The notes beneath the pieces are model-generated. The model ran no database searches. It saw only the letters and a program-made list of their open reading frames with translations, and had not been told where the DNA came from. Below, piece after piece: positions 54,312 to 62,951 of a stretch of DNA of 64,000 bases. The stretch's first letter is position 1. Every line of letters begins with the position of its first letter. The stretch lies in assembly GCF_002795825.1 (NCBI RefSeq), contig NZ_CP018800.1:1054001-1118000 (forward strand). The letters are read 5' to 3'. This DNA comes from Mariprofundus ferrinatatus. Lineage in GTDB: Bacteria; Pseudomonadota; Zetaproteobacteria; Mariprofundales; Mariprofundaceae. The position numbers and the translations under genes are program-made.

Positions 54312-54388
54312 GTCCCTATCGTCTAGTCGGCCTAGGACACCGCCCTTTCACGGCGGCAACAGGGGTTCGAATCCCCTTGGGGACGCCA
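54312..54388 (+). tRNA. tRNA-Glu (anticodon UUC)
   Basis: The cloverleaf folds with acceptor GTCCCTA / TGGGGAC, anticodon stem CCGCC / GGCGG with loop CTTTCAC, and T loop TTCGAAT. The CCA end is encoded. Its last bases are repeated downstream at 58353, and partly at 56985, so its 3' end served as an integration site. Confidence 0.97.
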
Positions 54389-54389
54389 A
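54371..54389 (+). repeat. att copy 1 (3' end of tRNA-Glu)
   Basis: ATCCCCTTGGGGACGCCA closes the tRNA gene and, with its downstream terminator, is the reference for the two further copies. CCTTGGGG-A-CGCCAA (54375-54389) matches copy 3 at 14 of 15 bases. Confidence 0.8.
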
Positions 54390-54401
54390 ATTAAGGCAAT
54401 A

Positions 54402-54434
54402 AAATAAAGGGGTTGCAGAAATGCAGCTCCTTTT
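54402..54434 (+). terminator. Terminator after tRNA-Glu (islet-borne)
   Basis: Stem AAGGGGTTGCA / TGCAGCTCCTT with two wobble pairs, a short GAAA-like loop and six T. It lies in islet DNA and replaces the displaced native terminator now at 58372. Confidence 0.75.
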
Positions 54435-54567
54435 TTGTTGTGAATTTGCATTGGTGAGCTTTGGGTAGGCAGGGGAATGTCCTTGTAATAGTTTCTTCCA
54501 TGTGAAGTAAACTGCCTGCCAAGCAGTAGAACAATCAAGGGCCATAGAAGCGTTCAATATGCTTGAA
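54435..54567. other. Islet spacer between tRNA-Glu terminator and Fe-S gene
   Basis: About 130 bp in which I see no gene. A minus-strand frame reading ALDCSTAWQAVYFTWKKL could be a scrap of an older gene, but nothing can be recognised. Confidence 0.4.
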
Positions 54568-55260
54568 TTATCCCAAACTAATTCCTTCCAGTCGCACACG
54601 ATAACCTTGTTCAGTTTTAATCATCATATTAATAAGTCCAGAGTGACGGGCTTGTAACATGCAGTATCGGGGAAGAAAGTTGTAACGGCGACCATACTCA
54701 ATTTTTCTTTGGCTTTGTATAACCATGCCTTCATAGGCCAGAATATGATAAAATCCAATCTCACGCCCACTCTCTCTTGCACCCATAGGTCCGGTAATGC
54801 ACCAAACCAGCGCACCGTTAAAATAGTCTGGTTCCTCCATCACAACGCCACAATGTGTTACAGGACAGCCTACACCCATGGCAGGTCTCCCAAAGAGTAT
54901 GTCACCCTTTTTTATCTTTAGTTTTTCCATATTAGCAGGATTGCCCAACAGAATGTGCTCACGGGGCCCCGGGTCATCGTCAAATTGATCCAAAATGAAG
55001 TCATACTCCCGATCAAGGATGTCTTTCCACGTTGGTGTCTCCATCCTCCGTATCGGCTGCGCTAGTTCAATTTCATGTTCAATCAAATGGATGCAGCGTT
55101 TAATGATTTCTGGGTCAGTGAGCGCATGTTCGGCCAAGTCTTCGCAACTTTTAAAGCCACACATGCCACAGTTTTTACCAGGAAGAAGTCGGGATAACTC
55201 TTTAGCATCAGTCACCTCACCACGTTCCAGGATATCGAGTAATTCAATGAGAACAGCCAT
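54568..55260 (-). CDS. Fe-S protein with ACS/CODH-gamma-type cluster domain
   Basis: 230 residues. The N-terminal ~60 carry GKNCGMCGFKSCEDLAEHA and a further Cys (IIKRC), the 4Fe-4S pattern of the FeS domain found in the corrinoid Fe-S protein and RnfB. The remaining ~150 residues (ILFGRPAMGVGCPVTHCGVV, GPMGARESGREIGFYHILAYEGMV) form a conserved-looking domain I do not recognise, with two more Cys and a His. It is last of a three-gene operon. A role in building or delivering a metal centre is inferred from context. Confidence 0.78.
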   Translation of the reverse strand: MAVLIELLDILERGEVTDAKELSRLLPGKNCGMCGFKSCEDLAEHALTDPEIIKRCIHLIEHEIELAQPIRRMETPTWKDILDREYDFILDQFDDDPGPREHILLGNPANMEKLKIKKGDILFGRPAMGVGCPVTHCGVVMEEPDYFNGALVWCITGPMGARESGREIGFYHILAYEGMVIQSQRKIEYGRRYNFLPRYCMLQARHSGLINMMIKTEQGYRVRLEGISLG

Positions 55261-55263
55261 AGA

Positions 55264-55962
55264 TCACTCCCCTTGATAAAAGGGGTCGGACTCCAATGTT
55301 CGGACTACACCGAAATGATTTTCCCAACCGATCTCCTTTTTGCCCGCACAGATTGTGCAGACGGCCAATGGGGGGTTACCCCTCAAGACCATGGGTTGTT
55401 TGATCTCTGGTGACTTCTCGACTTCGCGAACGATGCGATCAATATTGATTCCATGTAGGGCATCAGTTTCAATAACAGGAATTGGAGCCACTTCAGTAAG
55501 ATTCATGCGAAAGACTTCTCTCTCCGCTTGCGATACCAGATCAATTTTAGTTACCACAGCGATATCTGCCAGTGTTAACATCGGTCCGATTTTGCGTGGT
55601 AGGTTCATACCACTGGTCACTTCCAGTACGCATATGGCGAATCCACCTTCGACATATGGGGCACAGCGTAGACATAATCCAGCAGTTTCAACGATAAAGA
55701 TATCCGCCTGGTTTTTCTCTGCCCATTCAACAGCTTCCTTTAGAATCAATACGTGGCTGTGATCAGGACAGATCTCACCGGAATAAGCCGCCTTACTAGG
55801 AATGCCGAACTCCTCGCTGAACATCGTTGCTTCTTCGGCAAATTGCACATCTTCTTTCAAGTAAGCGACTCTTCGGCCTTGTGCGAGAAGCTTATTCGTA
55901 ACCTGTTTTAAAACTGTGGTCTTGCCACAGGTCGGGGGGCCGGCGCAGATAATGAGTTTCAT
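55264..55962 (-). CDS. HypB/CooC-like P-loop GTPase or ATPase
   Basis: 232-residue SIMIBI-class nucleotidase. Walker A is AGPPTCGKTT (about 7-16), with a KIDLV base-recognition motif that favours GTP. The central FIVETAGLCLRCAPYVEGG has CxxC, and the C-terminal CTICAGKKEIGWENHFG has a second CxxC plus His, a likely metal site. HypB, UreG and CobW relatives deliver nickel, cobalt or zinc to enzymes. Four bases overlap the upstream ABC gene, and 3 bp separate it from the Fe-S gene. Confidence 0.82.
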   Translation of the reverse strand: MKLIICAGPPTCGKTTVLKQVTNKLLAQGRRVAYLKEDVQFAEEATMFSEEFGIPSKAAYSGEICPDHSHVLILKEAVEWAEKNQADIFIVETAGLCLRCAPYVEGGFAICVLEVTSGMNLPRKIGPMLTLADIAVVTKIDLVSQAEREVFRMNLTEVAPIPVIETDALHGINIDRIVREVEKSPEIKQPMVLRGNPPLAVCTICAGKKEIGWENHFGVVRTLESDPFYQGE

Positions 55963-56831
55963 GACAATGTCTCCTTACTGCTTGAGAGTAATGCACTCAA
56001 ATCACCGCCCAGATTTTTTTCGCTAAGACGCTCCCCCTCCCACAGCCGCTTTCTAAAACGTAACATAAGGTCATCCAGCTTACCGATCCTATCAATTATA
56101 ATAGCCTCTTCCTCATCGGGATAAATAATTTTTTCCATAGCTCCCCGCGACATCACGATTCTAAAATCGGATAGCAACGCAATGCGTGGATCGTGGGTTA
56201 CGAAGACAAAAATCTTCTGGTAGTTCCTCAGCAACTCCAAAGCTCGACCTCGGTGAATTCCGGCATTTTCGATTTCATCTAGTAATAAAATAGGTGAATT
56301 GCCAATAATTACAGCGTCAGCAATCAATAGCGCACGAGTTTGACCGCCAGAGAGTTCGGTCATTGAGTTTTCCTGAATAATCGGTTCACCTGTTAGCTGG
56401 TTAGCAAAATCCAGAGTCTCCTCAACAATGGTTTCATGTTCATGTGCCCTTCTTATTTTTGCATGCATACGTAAAAAAACATCCACAGGCAGATCCGAGA
56501 GGAAATTAGTGTGCTGCGTAATCAAAGCAATTGGATTTTTGGAGGGATCATCCATAAGTTCTTCTGGAGGTGTGGCGCCATTGATAAGCATCCGCCTGCC
56601 GGTGGGCGTATTGGCATTAGCGAATAGTTCGATGTCATTAATTAGGGCTGTTTTACCAGAGCCAGTAGGACCAACAATGCTAACTACGTTGCCCATTTCG
56701 AACTTAACCTCAGTTACAGTCTCTTTCTGTCCAACCTTTCCATGCCCCCCCAGAAGAGTAACACTATGAACATCTTCGAGAGTTAAGCTCGACGGCTCAT
56801 TATTTCGTGAGAATGGAAAAATGCCTGACAT
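55959..56831 (-). CDS. Solitary ABC-type ATPase
   Basis: 290 residues with Walker A VGPTGSGKTALIND (about 53-66), Q-loop LITQHTN, signature TELSGGQTRALLIADA, Walker B PILLLDEIENAG and H-loop FVTHDPR. There is one nucleotide-binding domain and no membrane segment, and no permease is adjacent. It may therefore work as a soluble ATP-driven chaperone rather than a transporter. AAGGTGAG precedes the ATG. A -10-like TATACT lies about 30 bp upstream on the minus strand. First gene of the operon. Confidence 0.85.
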   Translation of the reverse strand: MSGIFPFSRNNEPSSLTLEDVHSVTLLGGHGKVGQKETVTEVKFEMGNVVSIVGPTGSGKTALINDIELFANANTPTGRRMLINGATPPEELMDDPSKNPIALITQHTNFLSDLPVDVFLRMHAKIRRAHEHETIVEETLDFANQLTGEPIIQENSMTELSGGQTRALLIADAVIIGNSPILLLDEIENAGIHRGRALELLRNYQKIFVFVTHDPRIALLSDFRIVMSRGAMEKIIYPDEEEAIIIDRIGKLDDLMLRFRKRLWEGERLSEKNLGGDLSALLSSSKETLS

Positions 56832-56984
56832 AGACTCACCTTCCTATGTTTAGTATAGCCTAAATATTTTGGGGTGGGAGATGGTTAAGTGATCGGTACC
56901 CCATGCTGATTATCGATGCATTTGGCCGGAAGTAGTCATTCATTAATTAATAAGAACAACCTCATTCCAATAGTGCCCAGATTT

Positions 56985-57002
56985 ATCCCCTACGGCACGC
57001 CA
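56985..57002 (+). repeat. att-like copy 2 (tRNA-Glu 3'-end-like)
   Basis: ATCCCCTACGGCACGCCA matches the tRNA-Glu(UUC) 3' end at 15 of 18 positions, and its TCCCCTACGG matches tRNA-Glu(CUC) exactly. A terminator follows 4 bp later, as after a real tRNA. No tRNA body precedes it. Confidence 0.6.
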
Positions 57003-57005
57003 GAC

Positions 57006-57042
57006 AACCCCAGTTATGGTTTTCCATAGCTGGGGTTTTTTT
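57006..57042 (+). terminator. Orphan plus-strand terminator in islet
   Basis: Stem AACCCCAGTTATGG / CCATAGCTGGGGTT with one wobble, a TTTT loop and seven T on the plus strand. No plus-strand gene lies upstream. It probably came in with att copy 2. Confidence 0.85.
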
Positions 57043-57108
57043 ATTTTCTGACAGGTATAGAAAAAACCTTGTTTTTCAGCGCACTACAATCCTTTTATTG
57101 AATCAATA

Positions 57109-58218
57109 TCACTCACTCAGCTTTAACCAATAACGGGTTCCTTTAAGTGTTCCCGTCCGAAAAAGTGCGCCAAGCTCGAGAAGTTTTTGCAGGTCTCGTG
57201 TAGCAGTTGCTCGCGATGTCTTCGCTATCTTAATATAATTCTCTGCAGATAGGCCGCCTGTAAACCCTTCGGGCCCTTCTTTAAACATGCGAGCAAGCAC
57301 CATTCCCTGTCTTTCATTGATCTGCCCATGAATGCGGTCATACAGCTTTGCCTTATTTATTAGAAACTCAATAAGGTTTTGCGAGTATCTGTTTGCCTCC
57401 AAAATTGTTTCAGCAAAATAAGATAACCATGAAGTAACGTGCAGAGTATGGTTATGTTTATTTAACTGAGCATAGTATTCTTTCTTTTGCCTCTCAATAA
57501 TCTGAGACAATGCAATCAATGACGGTTGCTTTAATGCTTGCGATAGAGCCTTTTCACTTAAAGCTCTGCCAATGCGCCCATTACCATCTTCAAAAGGATG
57601 AATGGTTACAAAGTACAGGTGTGCCAGACCTGAACGGGTTAATGCTGGCAAGGGATGCTTTCCATTCGGAGACGAATCGTTAAACCATTGGATATAGCCC
57701 TCCATCTCTTCACGTAGTTCAGATGATGGCGGCGCTTCAAAATGGACTTTTGGTTTATGGATGGATCCGGAAATTACCTGCATCGGATCTTCTCCAGTAC
57801 GATAGATGCCGACATCATGTATATCTCTACGTCCCATCATTAGCTTTGCATGCCAACTAAATATTTCTTCATGCGTAAGAGGGCAATCATAATCACAGTA
57901 AAGGGCAATCATCATTTCTGCCATTCCCTGCTCTGCAGGAGGGGAGGGTGCTTGCTTGTTTGTCGATAGACCAAAGTTTTTTCTGATTGATGATTGCAGG
58001 CTTTCCCGATTCAGGTATTCACCTTCAATTTCCGAGCTTTTCAAAGCCTCGTTACTGATAAGTTCAACTGTCAGTTCAGATTTTTCACTGTCACTAAAAT
58101 GTTTAAGTGCGCCCAGAAGCTTGCCTTCTTCAAGCAGAAAAGCTTCTTCTTTGGGCATTAGTTGATGTGCCTCATATTCAAATTCAGGCCATTCTTTTTG
58201 CTGCCAATTCCATATCAT
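57109..58218 (-). CDS. Fic family protein, class II, DUF4172-type N-terminus
   Basis: 369 residues. The Fic motif HPFEDGNGRIGR (about 207-218) is canonical. Near the N-terminus SSEIEGE (about 62-68) fits the (S/T)xxxE(G/N) inhibitory helix, so activity should be self-restrained. The region before it resembles the DUF4172 N-terminal domain, and the C-terminus (YIKIAKTSRATATRDLQKLLELG) looks like a winged helix. A 12-bp inverted repeat lies in its promoter region. It is the only gene of the second part of the tRNA-Glu islet. Confidence 0.9.
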   Translation of the reverse strand: MIWNWQQKEWPEFEYEAHQLMPKEEAFLLEEGKLLGALKHFSDSEKSELTVELISNEALKSSEIEGEYLNRESLQSSIRKNFGLSTNKQAPSPPAEQGMAEMMIALYCDYDCPLTHEEIFSWHAKLMMGRRDIHDVGIYRTGEDPMQVISGSIHKPKVHFEAPPSSELREEMEGYIQWFNDSSPNGKHPLPALTRSGLAHLYFVTIHPFEDGNGRIGRALSEKALSQALKQPSLIALSQIIERQKKEYYAQLNKHNHTLHVTSWLSYFAETILEANRYSQNLIEFLINKAKLYDRIHGQINERQGMVLARMFKEGPEGFTGGLSAENYIKIAKTSRATATRDLQKLLELGALFRTGTLKGTRYWLKLSE

Positions 58219-58237
58219 GAGGCATACAATGGCATCT

Positions 58238-58270
58238 TATAGCTCATATATCAATGAAATATGAGCTATA
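58238..58270 (-). promoter_or_regulatory. Perfect 12-bp inverted repeat upstream of Fic gene
   Basis: TATAGCTCATAT (58238-58249) and ATATGAGCTATA (58259-58270) are exact inverses with a 9-nt loop, 20 bp before the start. It is a strong operator candidate, perhaps for the protein's own winged helix. Confidence 0.7.
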
Positions 58271-58352
58271 TATCTGTCGAGTATAACTCACCTCAAATAA
58301 AAACAGTTGAAGAAAACACAAATATTTCACAACTCCAACTGGTGTTTACATA

Positions 58353-58367
58353 CCTTGGGGGCGCCAA
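58353..58367 (+). repeat. att copy 3 (right end of islet)
   Basis: CCTTGGGGGCGCCAA repeats the tRNA-Glu 3' end with one mismatch, and the similar TTAAGG follows in both places. No tRNA body precedes it. Confidence 0.85.
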
Positions 58368-58371
58368 TCTT

Positions 58372-58398
58372 AAGGGATGCCGAAAGGCATCCCTTTTT
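58372..58398 (+). terminator. Displaced native terminator of tRNA-Glu
   Basis: A perfect 10-bp stem AAGGGATGCC / GGCATCCCTT with a GAAA loop and five T, starting 5 bp after att copy 3. No gene precedes it now, and it has the position expected for the original tRNA-Glu terminator. Confidence 0.85.
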
Positions 58399-61881: not shown

Positions 61882-62538
61882 TCAATCTGCCTGAACGTCC
61901 GTTTCGGGCCGCTTAATCCCCGGGATCCACATGCGACCTTGTGCTGCATCAAGGCCTGAGTGCGTGAGATAAACACCCCAGAGCGCACCGCTCTTTAGTT
62001 GTACGGCATGTTGTTCATACAGCCAGGCAATATCAGTTCGCAGTCTATCAAATGAGATGCCGTGCCCTTGATCCTCAAGATCCTGAAGCAGTTGAGCTTC
62101 ATTGGTCGCGTATGTTTTTGAGCCGGCAAGAATCATTAGAATGCACAAGCGGCGATCTTCAAGGTTCTGCTGCTCTTCCTGGGACAATGCTGCCGGCCTT
62201 TCTGATCTGAGCTTATTAGAAGGCTCTTCCGACGTTTCCTGGCTGTCAGTAGCCGCGCGTTGTTCTATCCTCTCCTGTTTTCTCAGTTCACCCGGATCGA
62301 TGTTTTGCGCAAGAAGTGCCTTGGCAGCATCACGTTTTTCCCGTGCCTCTTCGAGCGCTACTGAGGGATAGACACCTAAGGCAAGGCTCTTCTGCTTGCC
62401 TTCAAAACGGTAGGCCAGCTTCCAGTACCTGCCTGAAGATTTCACCAGTAGATAGAGTCCGCCACCATCGCTGACCTTATACTGGTTTCTTCCATAAGGC
62501 ACTTTAGTGGCTTCTATTTCCGCATCAGTTAGTGGCAT
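61882..62538 (-). CDS. Chimeric protein: integrase arm-binding domain plus Mu-like phage domain
   Basis: 218 residues. Residues 1-~80 (MPLTDAEIEATKVPYG, KVSDGGGLYLLVKSSGRYWK, YPSVALEEAREKRDAAK) are the DUF4102 arm-type DNA-binding domain of P4-like tyrosine integrases. The integrase catalytic domain is absent. After a charged linker, residues ~125-218 (HGISFDRLRTDIAWLYEQ, LTHSGLDAAQGRMWIPGIKRP) resemble the VpaChn25_0724-type winged-helix protein of Mu-like phages. The ATG at 62538 has GAGG 6 nt upstream. It may be a repurposed DNA-binding regulator that binds the repeats upstream (inference). Confidence 0.8.
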   Translation of the reverse strand: MPLTDAEIEATKVPYGRNQYKVSDGGGLYLLVKSSGRYWKLAYRFEGKQKSLALGVYPSVALEEAREKRDAAKALLAQNIDPGELRKQERIEQRAATDSQETSEEPSNKLRSERPAALSQEEQQNLEDRRLCILMILAGSKTYATNEAQLLQDLEDQGHGISFDRLRTDIAWLYEQHAVQLKSGALWGVYLTHSGLDAAQGRMWIPGIKRPETDVQAD

Positions 62539-62550
62539 GCTCGACCTCAT

Positions 62551-62876: not shown

Positions 62877-62951
62877 TGGTACTCCGTAGGGGAATCGAAC
62901 CCCTGTTACCGGCGTGAGAGGCCAGCGTCCTAACCGCTAGACGAACGGAGC
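62877..62951 (-). tRNA. tRNA-Glu (anticodon CUC)
   Basis: Reading the minus strand, acceptor GCTCCGT / ACGGAGT, anticodon stem CTGGC / GCCGG with loop CTCTCAC giving CTC, and T loop TTCGATT. The CCA end is encoded (62879-62877). With the UUC isoacceptor at 54312 it covers both Glu codons. Confidence 0.95.

Follow-up and report, generated by a model that had tools for sequence, protein, structure and literature searches.

Two tandem recombinase-less islets at a tRNA-Glu gene of Mariprofundus ferrinatatus, probably bounded by ends of large serine recombinase elements

Islands that lie in tandem at the 3′ end of a single RNA gene and lack a recombinase of their own are known from Dehalococcoides, where 15 of 31 ssrA islands, the serine recombinase of which is dsiB, carry no recombinase module and are proposed to be cis-mobilizable (McMurdie et al. 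2011, PMC3146451). Cis-mobilizable elements (CIMEs) form a named class that is devoid of integration and transfer genes and can be stacked at one tRNA or gene end (PMC5704250). In the tRNA islands collected in Islander, attP restores the tRNA end and the displaced fragment marks the far end; according to that 2014 paper, no integrases other than those of the tyrosine type were known to use tRNA and tmRNA genes as targets (PMC4383910). Here, we describe two gene cassettes, an operon (islet A) and a Fic gene (Fic islet), that follow tRNA-Glu(UUC) in the iron oxidiser Mariprofundus ferrinatatus (Mariprofundaceae). The DNA analysed, hereafter the window, comprises 64,000 nt (NZ_CP018800.1:1,054,001-1,118,000) of a 2.30 Mb single-contig genome, coded G000 in the comparisons. 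With good but not full confidence, the cassettes are assigned as small non-autonomous elements that inserted successively at the acceptor end of tRNA-Glu(UUC), using the site and ends of elements from the same family that encode large serine recombinases (LSRs).

As far as the available text on the ssrA islands goes, they resemble the present case in their tandem position at a single RNA gene's 3′ end, in the short direct repeat that marks each far end, in a serine recombinase gene overlapping attL with its 3′ end, which enters the target in antisense, and in a conserved motif beside the repeat. The target in Dehalococcoides is tmRNA, with insertion in the T-loop, whereas the site found here is tRNA-Glu, at a TT between T-stem and acceptor stem. 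Moreover, Dehalococcoides belongs to a different phylum, the present islets measure only 1–3 kb, and a terminator in an attachment arm is not described in that text (PMC3146451). With CIMEs, as presented in the accessible portion of PMC5704250, the islets share the lack of integration and transfer genes, the stacking at one tRNA or gene end and, for the Fic islet, the retention of both attL and attR; the CIME examples at tRNA genes given there involve tyrosine integrases, in contrast to the LSR ends seen here, and mobilisation in cis would be an extrapolation for our locus. Compared to the Islander tRNA islands the layout is alike and the enzyme differs, the recombinase of the relatives being an LSR (PMC4383910). 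A sequence-only reading of this DNA had regarded such tiny tandem islets as an undescribed class. In view of these two systems, so far as their sources describe them, this claim is not upheld: recombinase-less tandem islands at an RNA gene, with a serine recombinase, were already reported. Within the open literature searched, outside which more recent accounts of LSRs that use tRNA genes may exist, three features appear new relative to the ssrA islands: the tRNA target, the group of bacteria, and a terminator in which recombinase tail and half-site are combined. The relevant features of the window are as follows.

54312..54388, + strand: tRNA-Glu(UUC), the live target (ARAGORN).
54373-54388, + strand: acceptor side of tRNA-Glu(UUC), CCCCTTGGGGACGCCA; core position deduced from comparison with relatives.
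54406..54433, + strand: terminator T1, directly 3′ of the live tRNA; hairpin of -17.1 kcal/mol.
54492..56872, no strand assigned: DNA common to the window and a different chromosomal place in G011 (blastn, 92.6% identity).
54568..55260, - strand: islet A cargo, Fe–S cluster protein (Pfam match, PF04060).
55264..55962, - strand: islet A cargo, CobW/HypB/UreG-type P-loop GTPase (Pfam match, PF02492).
55959..56831, - strand: islet A cargo, ABC-type ATPase (Pfam match, PF00005).
56967..56990, + strand: right arm R1, including AGTGCCCAGATTTATCCCC, half-site of LSR family 1 type; resembles attR of the LSR-bearing contig G010:C51 (z 8.9).
56985..57002, + strand: copy 2, body-less tRNA-Glu 3′ end, ATCCCCTACGGCACGCCA; 15/18 bases.
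57006..57037, + strand: terminator T2, to which the Fic islet's left end is assigned (left half-site plus tail of a family 2 LSR); hairpin of -24.2 kcal/mol.
57109..58218, - strand: Fic islet cargo, DUF4172-Fic protein of 369 aa (domain match).
58335..58352, + strand: right arm R2, including ACTGGTGTTTA, half-site of LSR family 2 type; G014 attR z 4.4, family 2 consensus ACTGGGGTTAAGAACAC p 0.0035.
58351..58367, + strand: copy 3, body-less tRNA-Glu 3′ end; 14/15 bases across 58353-58367 (CCTTGGGGGCGCCAA).
58372..58395, + strand: terminator T3, assigned as the oldest displaced terminator, bordering the alcohol dehydrogenase (ADH) gene; hairpin of -18.6 kcal/mol.

Along the forward strand, the live tRNA is thus followed by T1, the opposite-strand operon of three genes, copy 2 with T2, the DUF4172-Fic gene, copy 3 with T3 and the ADH gene. 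The sequence-only reading had identified both repeats of the tRNA-Glu 3′ end and the absence of a tRNA body before them; the first point is firm through recurrence in relatives (see below), and ARAGORN detected no tRNA body upstream of copies 2 and 3. Its cargo assignment, a metal-assembly-like operon and then a Fic gene, is likewise borne out by the domain matches. It had also placed a strong terminator 4–13 bp behind each copy. Three strong hairpins are present, none of which was equalled in stability by any shuffled sequence, but T1 begins 17 nt past the tRNA and T2 and T3 begin 3–4 nt past their copies. Domain and LSR searches found no recombinase gene in either islet, as had been stated, and no PF00589 match; only cargo genes lie between the ends, without transfer genes. 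The enzyme class, left unnamed in that reading, is probably that of the LSRs seen in relatives.

Body-less tRNA-Glu ends are not confined to the window. A search with the 16-base tRNA end detected them within the genus in G010, G013, G014, G016, G017 and G020, and a family-wide search added G046, G055, G074, G082 and G088. The real pattern gave exact 16-base copies in many genomes, whereas a reversed-pattern control was nearly empty. Most displaced ends in relatives are followed by a terminator of their own, and the terminators behind tRNA-Glu ends belong to different families. To the left of the displaced ends, ~20–40 bp are common to species with different cargo; the arms pair as R1 in G000 (copy 2) and G010 (z 8.9), R2 in G000 (copy 3) and G014 (z 4.4), and R3 in G013 and G020 (z 4.8). 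All displaced ends except that of G016 start at the CCCC before TT, without upstream tRNA sequence, and they are of the CCCC type even in hosts with a CCGG-type tRNA (G014, G017, G020).

The tRNA-Glu(UUC) genes of 20 genus members show T-arm variants, GGGG/CCCC and CCGG/CCGG, scattered through the genus. An explanation of these variants as element-driven replacement of the tRNA 3′ half was dropped after the core had been placed at TT. Furthermore, ~40 bp of the tRNA-Glu 3′ half lie inverted between mazG and pgsA in G003 (L130:1343-1384), ~0.8 kb upstream of the live tRNA, and the orientation of tRNA-Glu relative to the ADH-pgsA-mazG block is flipped in part of the genus (L013, L015, L005, L006 and L008 versus L003 and L004).

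Recombinases were found at the corresponding arms of relatives. The G010 contig with arm R1 encodes an LSR of 502 aa (family 1) with PF00239 Resolvase, PF07508 Recombinase and PF13408 zinc ribbon domains; the Pfam scan covered this protein. Its relatives (58–60%), likewise of family 1, are located at a tRNA-Asn end in G017 (G017:C81) and G011 (G011:C1:1839122), and an R1-type motif stands beside their tails (GAGTGCCCAGATTTGTCCC in G017; also in G011). At the G011 gene, a tRNA-Asn 3′ fragment alone was observed, no tRNA being detected there. Family 2 LSRs are found directly at tRNA-Glu, with CUC anticodon in G006 and G013 and with UUC in G045, G046, G047, G069 and G074, and share 59–98% identity among themselves and ~23–26% with family 1. 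Their C-terminus faces and overlaps the tRNA, the frame continuing into antisense tRNA, and T2 in these loci corresponds to the final codons of the LSR gene read in antisense (e.g. INPSYVSITG). Another LSR group was noted near tRNA-Ser genes in G015 (L187) and G041 (L190), which suggests that Mariprofundaceae commonly have LSRs in the neighbourhood of tRNA genes.

In G074, both ends of one LSR element are present on one contig, ~59 kb apart (tRNA-T2-LSR at 59.3 kb, displaced end at 270). The attP half-sites, ACTGGGGTTAA and TTAACCCCAGT, are inverted around TT, and the joined ends read ACTGGGGTTAAGAACACGT-CCCC-TT-GGGGATGCCA-GTTAACCCCAGTTATGG, an 11-bp inverted repeat with its axis within one base of TT. 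A dyad scan gave the best axis at TT as well, i.e. the TT within CCCCTTGGGG of the tRNA. No phage structural genes were noticed when the open reading frames of this ~59-kb element were looked over, without a family search, and these frames resemble an accessory island. R2 and R3 are variants of the family 2 right arm and both fit the family 2 consensus. Accordingly, T2 on the left and R2 on the right of the Fic islet correspond to attL and attR of LSR family 2; G014 shows the same pair, but on two contigs. For islet A, the right end (R1) matches LSR family 1.

T2 is itself a conserved entity. It is located directly behind the live tRNA-Glu in G011, G014, G017, G021 and G022, and all 13 of its 13 hairpin pairs are kept across 17 loci, four of these pairs with changes on both sides. 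Pairing is retained whether or not the locus has an LSR, so that selection appears to act on the terminator function. A T2 pattern scan over the genomes of 84,980 species returned 14 records, nearly all from Zetaproteobacteria and 12 of them at tRNA-Glu or a displaced end; the named contigs belong to Mariprofundus, Ghiorsea and other Mariprofundaceae. A metagenome-assembled genome labelled uncultured Flavobacteriaceae (L269) has T2 directly behind a zetaproteobacterial-looking tRNA-Glu and probably contains a mis-binned contig.

These data are suggestive of the following mechanism. The attP of an intact LSR element comprises a right half-site, a mimic of the tRNA end (CCCC-TT-GGGGAYGCCA), a left half-site doubling as the last recombinase codons in antisense, and a rho-independent terminator. 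Recombination would occur near TT, where the exact crossover is tentatively placed from the alignments, so that the terminator and the final ten bases of the tRNA would be exchanged for those of the element, the old ones being pushed to the far end. In this scheme T2 and R2 would represent the two ends of the Fic islet. Because bases left of TT would derive from the attP of the element and not from the old tRNA, both the imperfect match of copy 2 and the CCCC ends in CCGG-tRNA hosts would be explained. The succession of insertions put forward in the sequence-only reading, each bringing a substitute end and terminator, is therefore supported, with the amendment that those bases would not stem from the old tRNA. 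The islets may have lost an LSR by internal deletion or have arisen on bare ends, and an LSR acting in trans, or a neighbouring element, may have moved them; mobilisation in trans is a presumption. Both cassettes are probably recombinase-less hitch-hikers at the tRNA gene, which on these sequence comparisons would make them LSR-specified, CIME-like tandem islets. A broader proposal is that Mariprofundaceae harbour family-wide cassettes with two short LSR half-sites only, one doubling as recombinase tail and tRNA terminator, and that LSRs of more than one family insert these cassettes in trans at tRNA-Glu, one behind the other, as a tRNA-anchored gene-cassette array. We put this forward tentatively, as an idea with the odds somewhat against it.

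Comparison of the locus across species points to insertion. In G001 and G015, the kinase gene and tRNA-Glu are followed by a different terminator, a small opposite-strand gene (fliL-like by eye) and ADH, while in G011 T2 lies directly 3′ of tRNA-Glu, followed by >8 kb of other genes and T1 adjoining ADH; the tRNA-to-ADH interval has thus been replaced wholesale between close relatives. The window flank past T3 is homologous to the tRNA-locus flank of G001 and G015 beyond their small gene. In another part of the genus, a pcnB-like gene is situated directly behind tRNA-Glu in G018, together with an LSR tail remnant. In G013 it is on a different contig, where a displaced end and T1 precede it, and in G017 T2 comes first, then a displaced end, a further terminator, two genes and finally the pcnB-like gene. 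Behind its displaced end, G082 has a flank with 74–80% identity over ~1.4 kb to the one directly behind the live tRNA-Glu of the Ghiorsea-group genomes G068, G087 and G080. The terminator at the G010 displaced end is of the type found behind the live tRNA in G012, and T1-type terminators occur behind tRNA-Glu in other genera of the family.

The cargo was compared separately. A copy of the islet A operon is present elsewhere in G011 (L258:9243-11622), with 92.6% DNA identity over 2.38 kb (blastn); it is away from any detected tRNA and adjoins an aminotransferase-like gene. Third-codon identity between the two copies is 82–87%, as compared to 38–54% for neighbouring core genes, and neighbouring genes have 63–78% DNA identity. 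By these identities, the islet A cargo has moved horizontally, and recently. In G011, a 78-bp fragment of the Fe–S gene end is repeated 1.5 kb from the operon copy. When close copies were sought for the Fic gene, identity did not exceed 72%, hence this cargo provides no direct evidence of recent transfer.

Decayed islands of tyrosine integrases, each islet having lost its integrase, would be a conventional explanation, as tRNA genes are used mostly by these enzymes (PMC4383910). In G016, a helix-turn-helix-like gene lies close to a 48-bp displaced half of tRNA-Glu that starts in the anticodon arm (L142:1154-1201), and a separate contig has a decayed tyrosine integrase not far from the live tRNA-Glu (L133:3077-5998), an integrase of a different type at this tRNA; the window itself contains a truncated P4-type integrase, reduced to the Arm DNA-binding domain (61882-62550, - strand), downstream of tRNA-Glu(CUC) (62877-62951, - strand). 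Still, identity at the other displaced ends extends over ~16 bp and stops at the half-site, unlike the G016 block, and the arms match LSR elements, the left end T2 being an LSR tail. As the PF00589 search of 23 genomes across the genus found the decayed G016 fragment as the sole case at tRNA-Glu(UUC), a tyrosine integrase was set aside as the enzyme, and the explanation as a whole is regarded as unlikely. As a separate observation, apparently full-length tyrosine integrases stand beside the equivalent tRNA-Glu match in G019 and G020.

Tandem duplication and decay of tRNA-Glu with its terminator, or rearrangement by homologous recombination, would dispense with a mobile element. Every copy is indeed a tRNA end plus terminator, and tRNA clusters are known to duplicate and decay. 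However, the displaced ends, bar G016, share one start point and have common non-tRNA arms to their left, the terminators are of different families, and duplication cannot produce CCCC ends in CCGG-tRNA hosts; as the flank comparisons also indicate insertion, we consider this route very improbable. Least credible of all, and close to negligible, is pure coincidence, with everyday terminators between genes happening to adjoin sequences that resemble a short, GC-rich tRNA end. Taken singly, copy 3 does not exceed chance expectation in the 64-kb window (two 14/15 matches arise in 11 of 100 shuffles), and intergenic terminators are common, with eight found versus 5.3 expected. Five places in the window lie within three mismatches of the 16-base tRNA end, and a terminator follows only three of them (the tRNA and copies 2 and 3), on the same strand and all within 4 kb. 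For matches of the copy 2 type (15/18), 0.07 were expected and two were found (the tRNA and copy 2), a number reached in none of 100 shuffles. Within the window, the statistics are good for copy 2 and for tRNA end and terminator in combination, and poor for copy 3 by itself. Weak as they are taken together, the observation is firm because the layout recurs in relatives, with exact 16-base copies in many genomes, a near-empty reversed control and conserved arms.

Several results weigh against successive insertion of LSR-type elements. The G000 genome contains no match to an LSR of family 1 or 2 elsewhere; as the islets also lack a recombinase, they are classed as derivatives rather than as LSR elements. 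The left end of islet A carries no recognisable half-site: the family 1 motif CTGGGCAC is absent at T1, which resembles a native tRNA-Glu terminator. T1 and R1 could therefore not be shown to be the two ends of one element, a pairing we abandoned; the alternatives are capture of T1 and a later replacement of the left end. Copy 3 and R2 give a modest match, in which a small deletion occurs. The DNA shared with G011 stops short of T1 and R1, i.e. of the tRNA ends, so the operon was not necessarily transferred via the tRNA-end route. Finally, the empty sites anticipated by the sequence-only reading are found in G068, G087 and G080 versus G082, and G011 carries T2 directly at its tRNA, but at the window locus an exact empty site, with T3 directly behind the tRNA, was not found among the relatives compared.

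On balance, successive insertion at tRNA-Glu by elements with LSR-type ends remains the favoured assignment. It provides a well-resolved case of LSRs specifying tRNA genes, which the main tRNA-island resource called unknown in 2014 (PMC4383910). It shows how an element whose attachment arm bears a terminator, overlapping the recombinase gene, can give its target back both 3′ end and terminator. It also explains a class of tiny recombinase-less islets: as the Islander filters require an integrase per island, finders of this kind would miss them (PMC4383910). The pairs of LSR and attachment site, at tRNA-Glu and tRNA-Asn, are directly testable and might be of use for integrating DNA into neutrophilic iron oxidisers.

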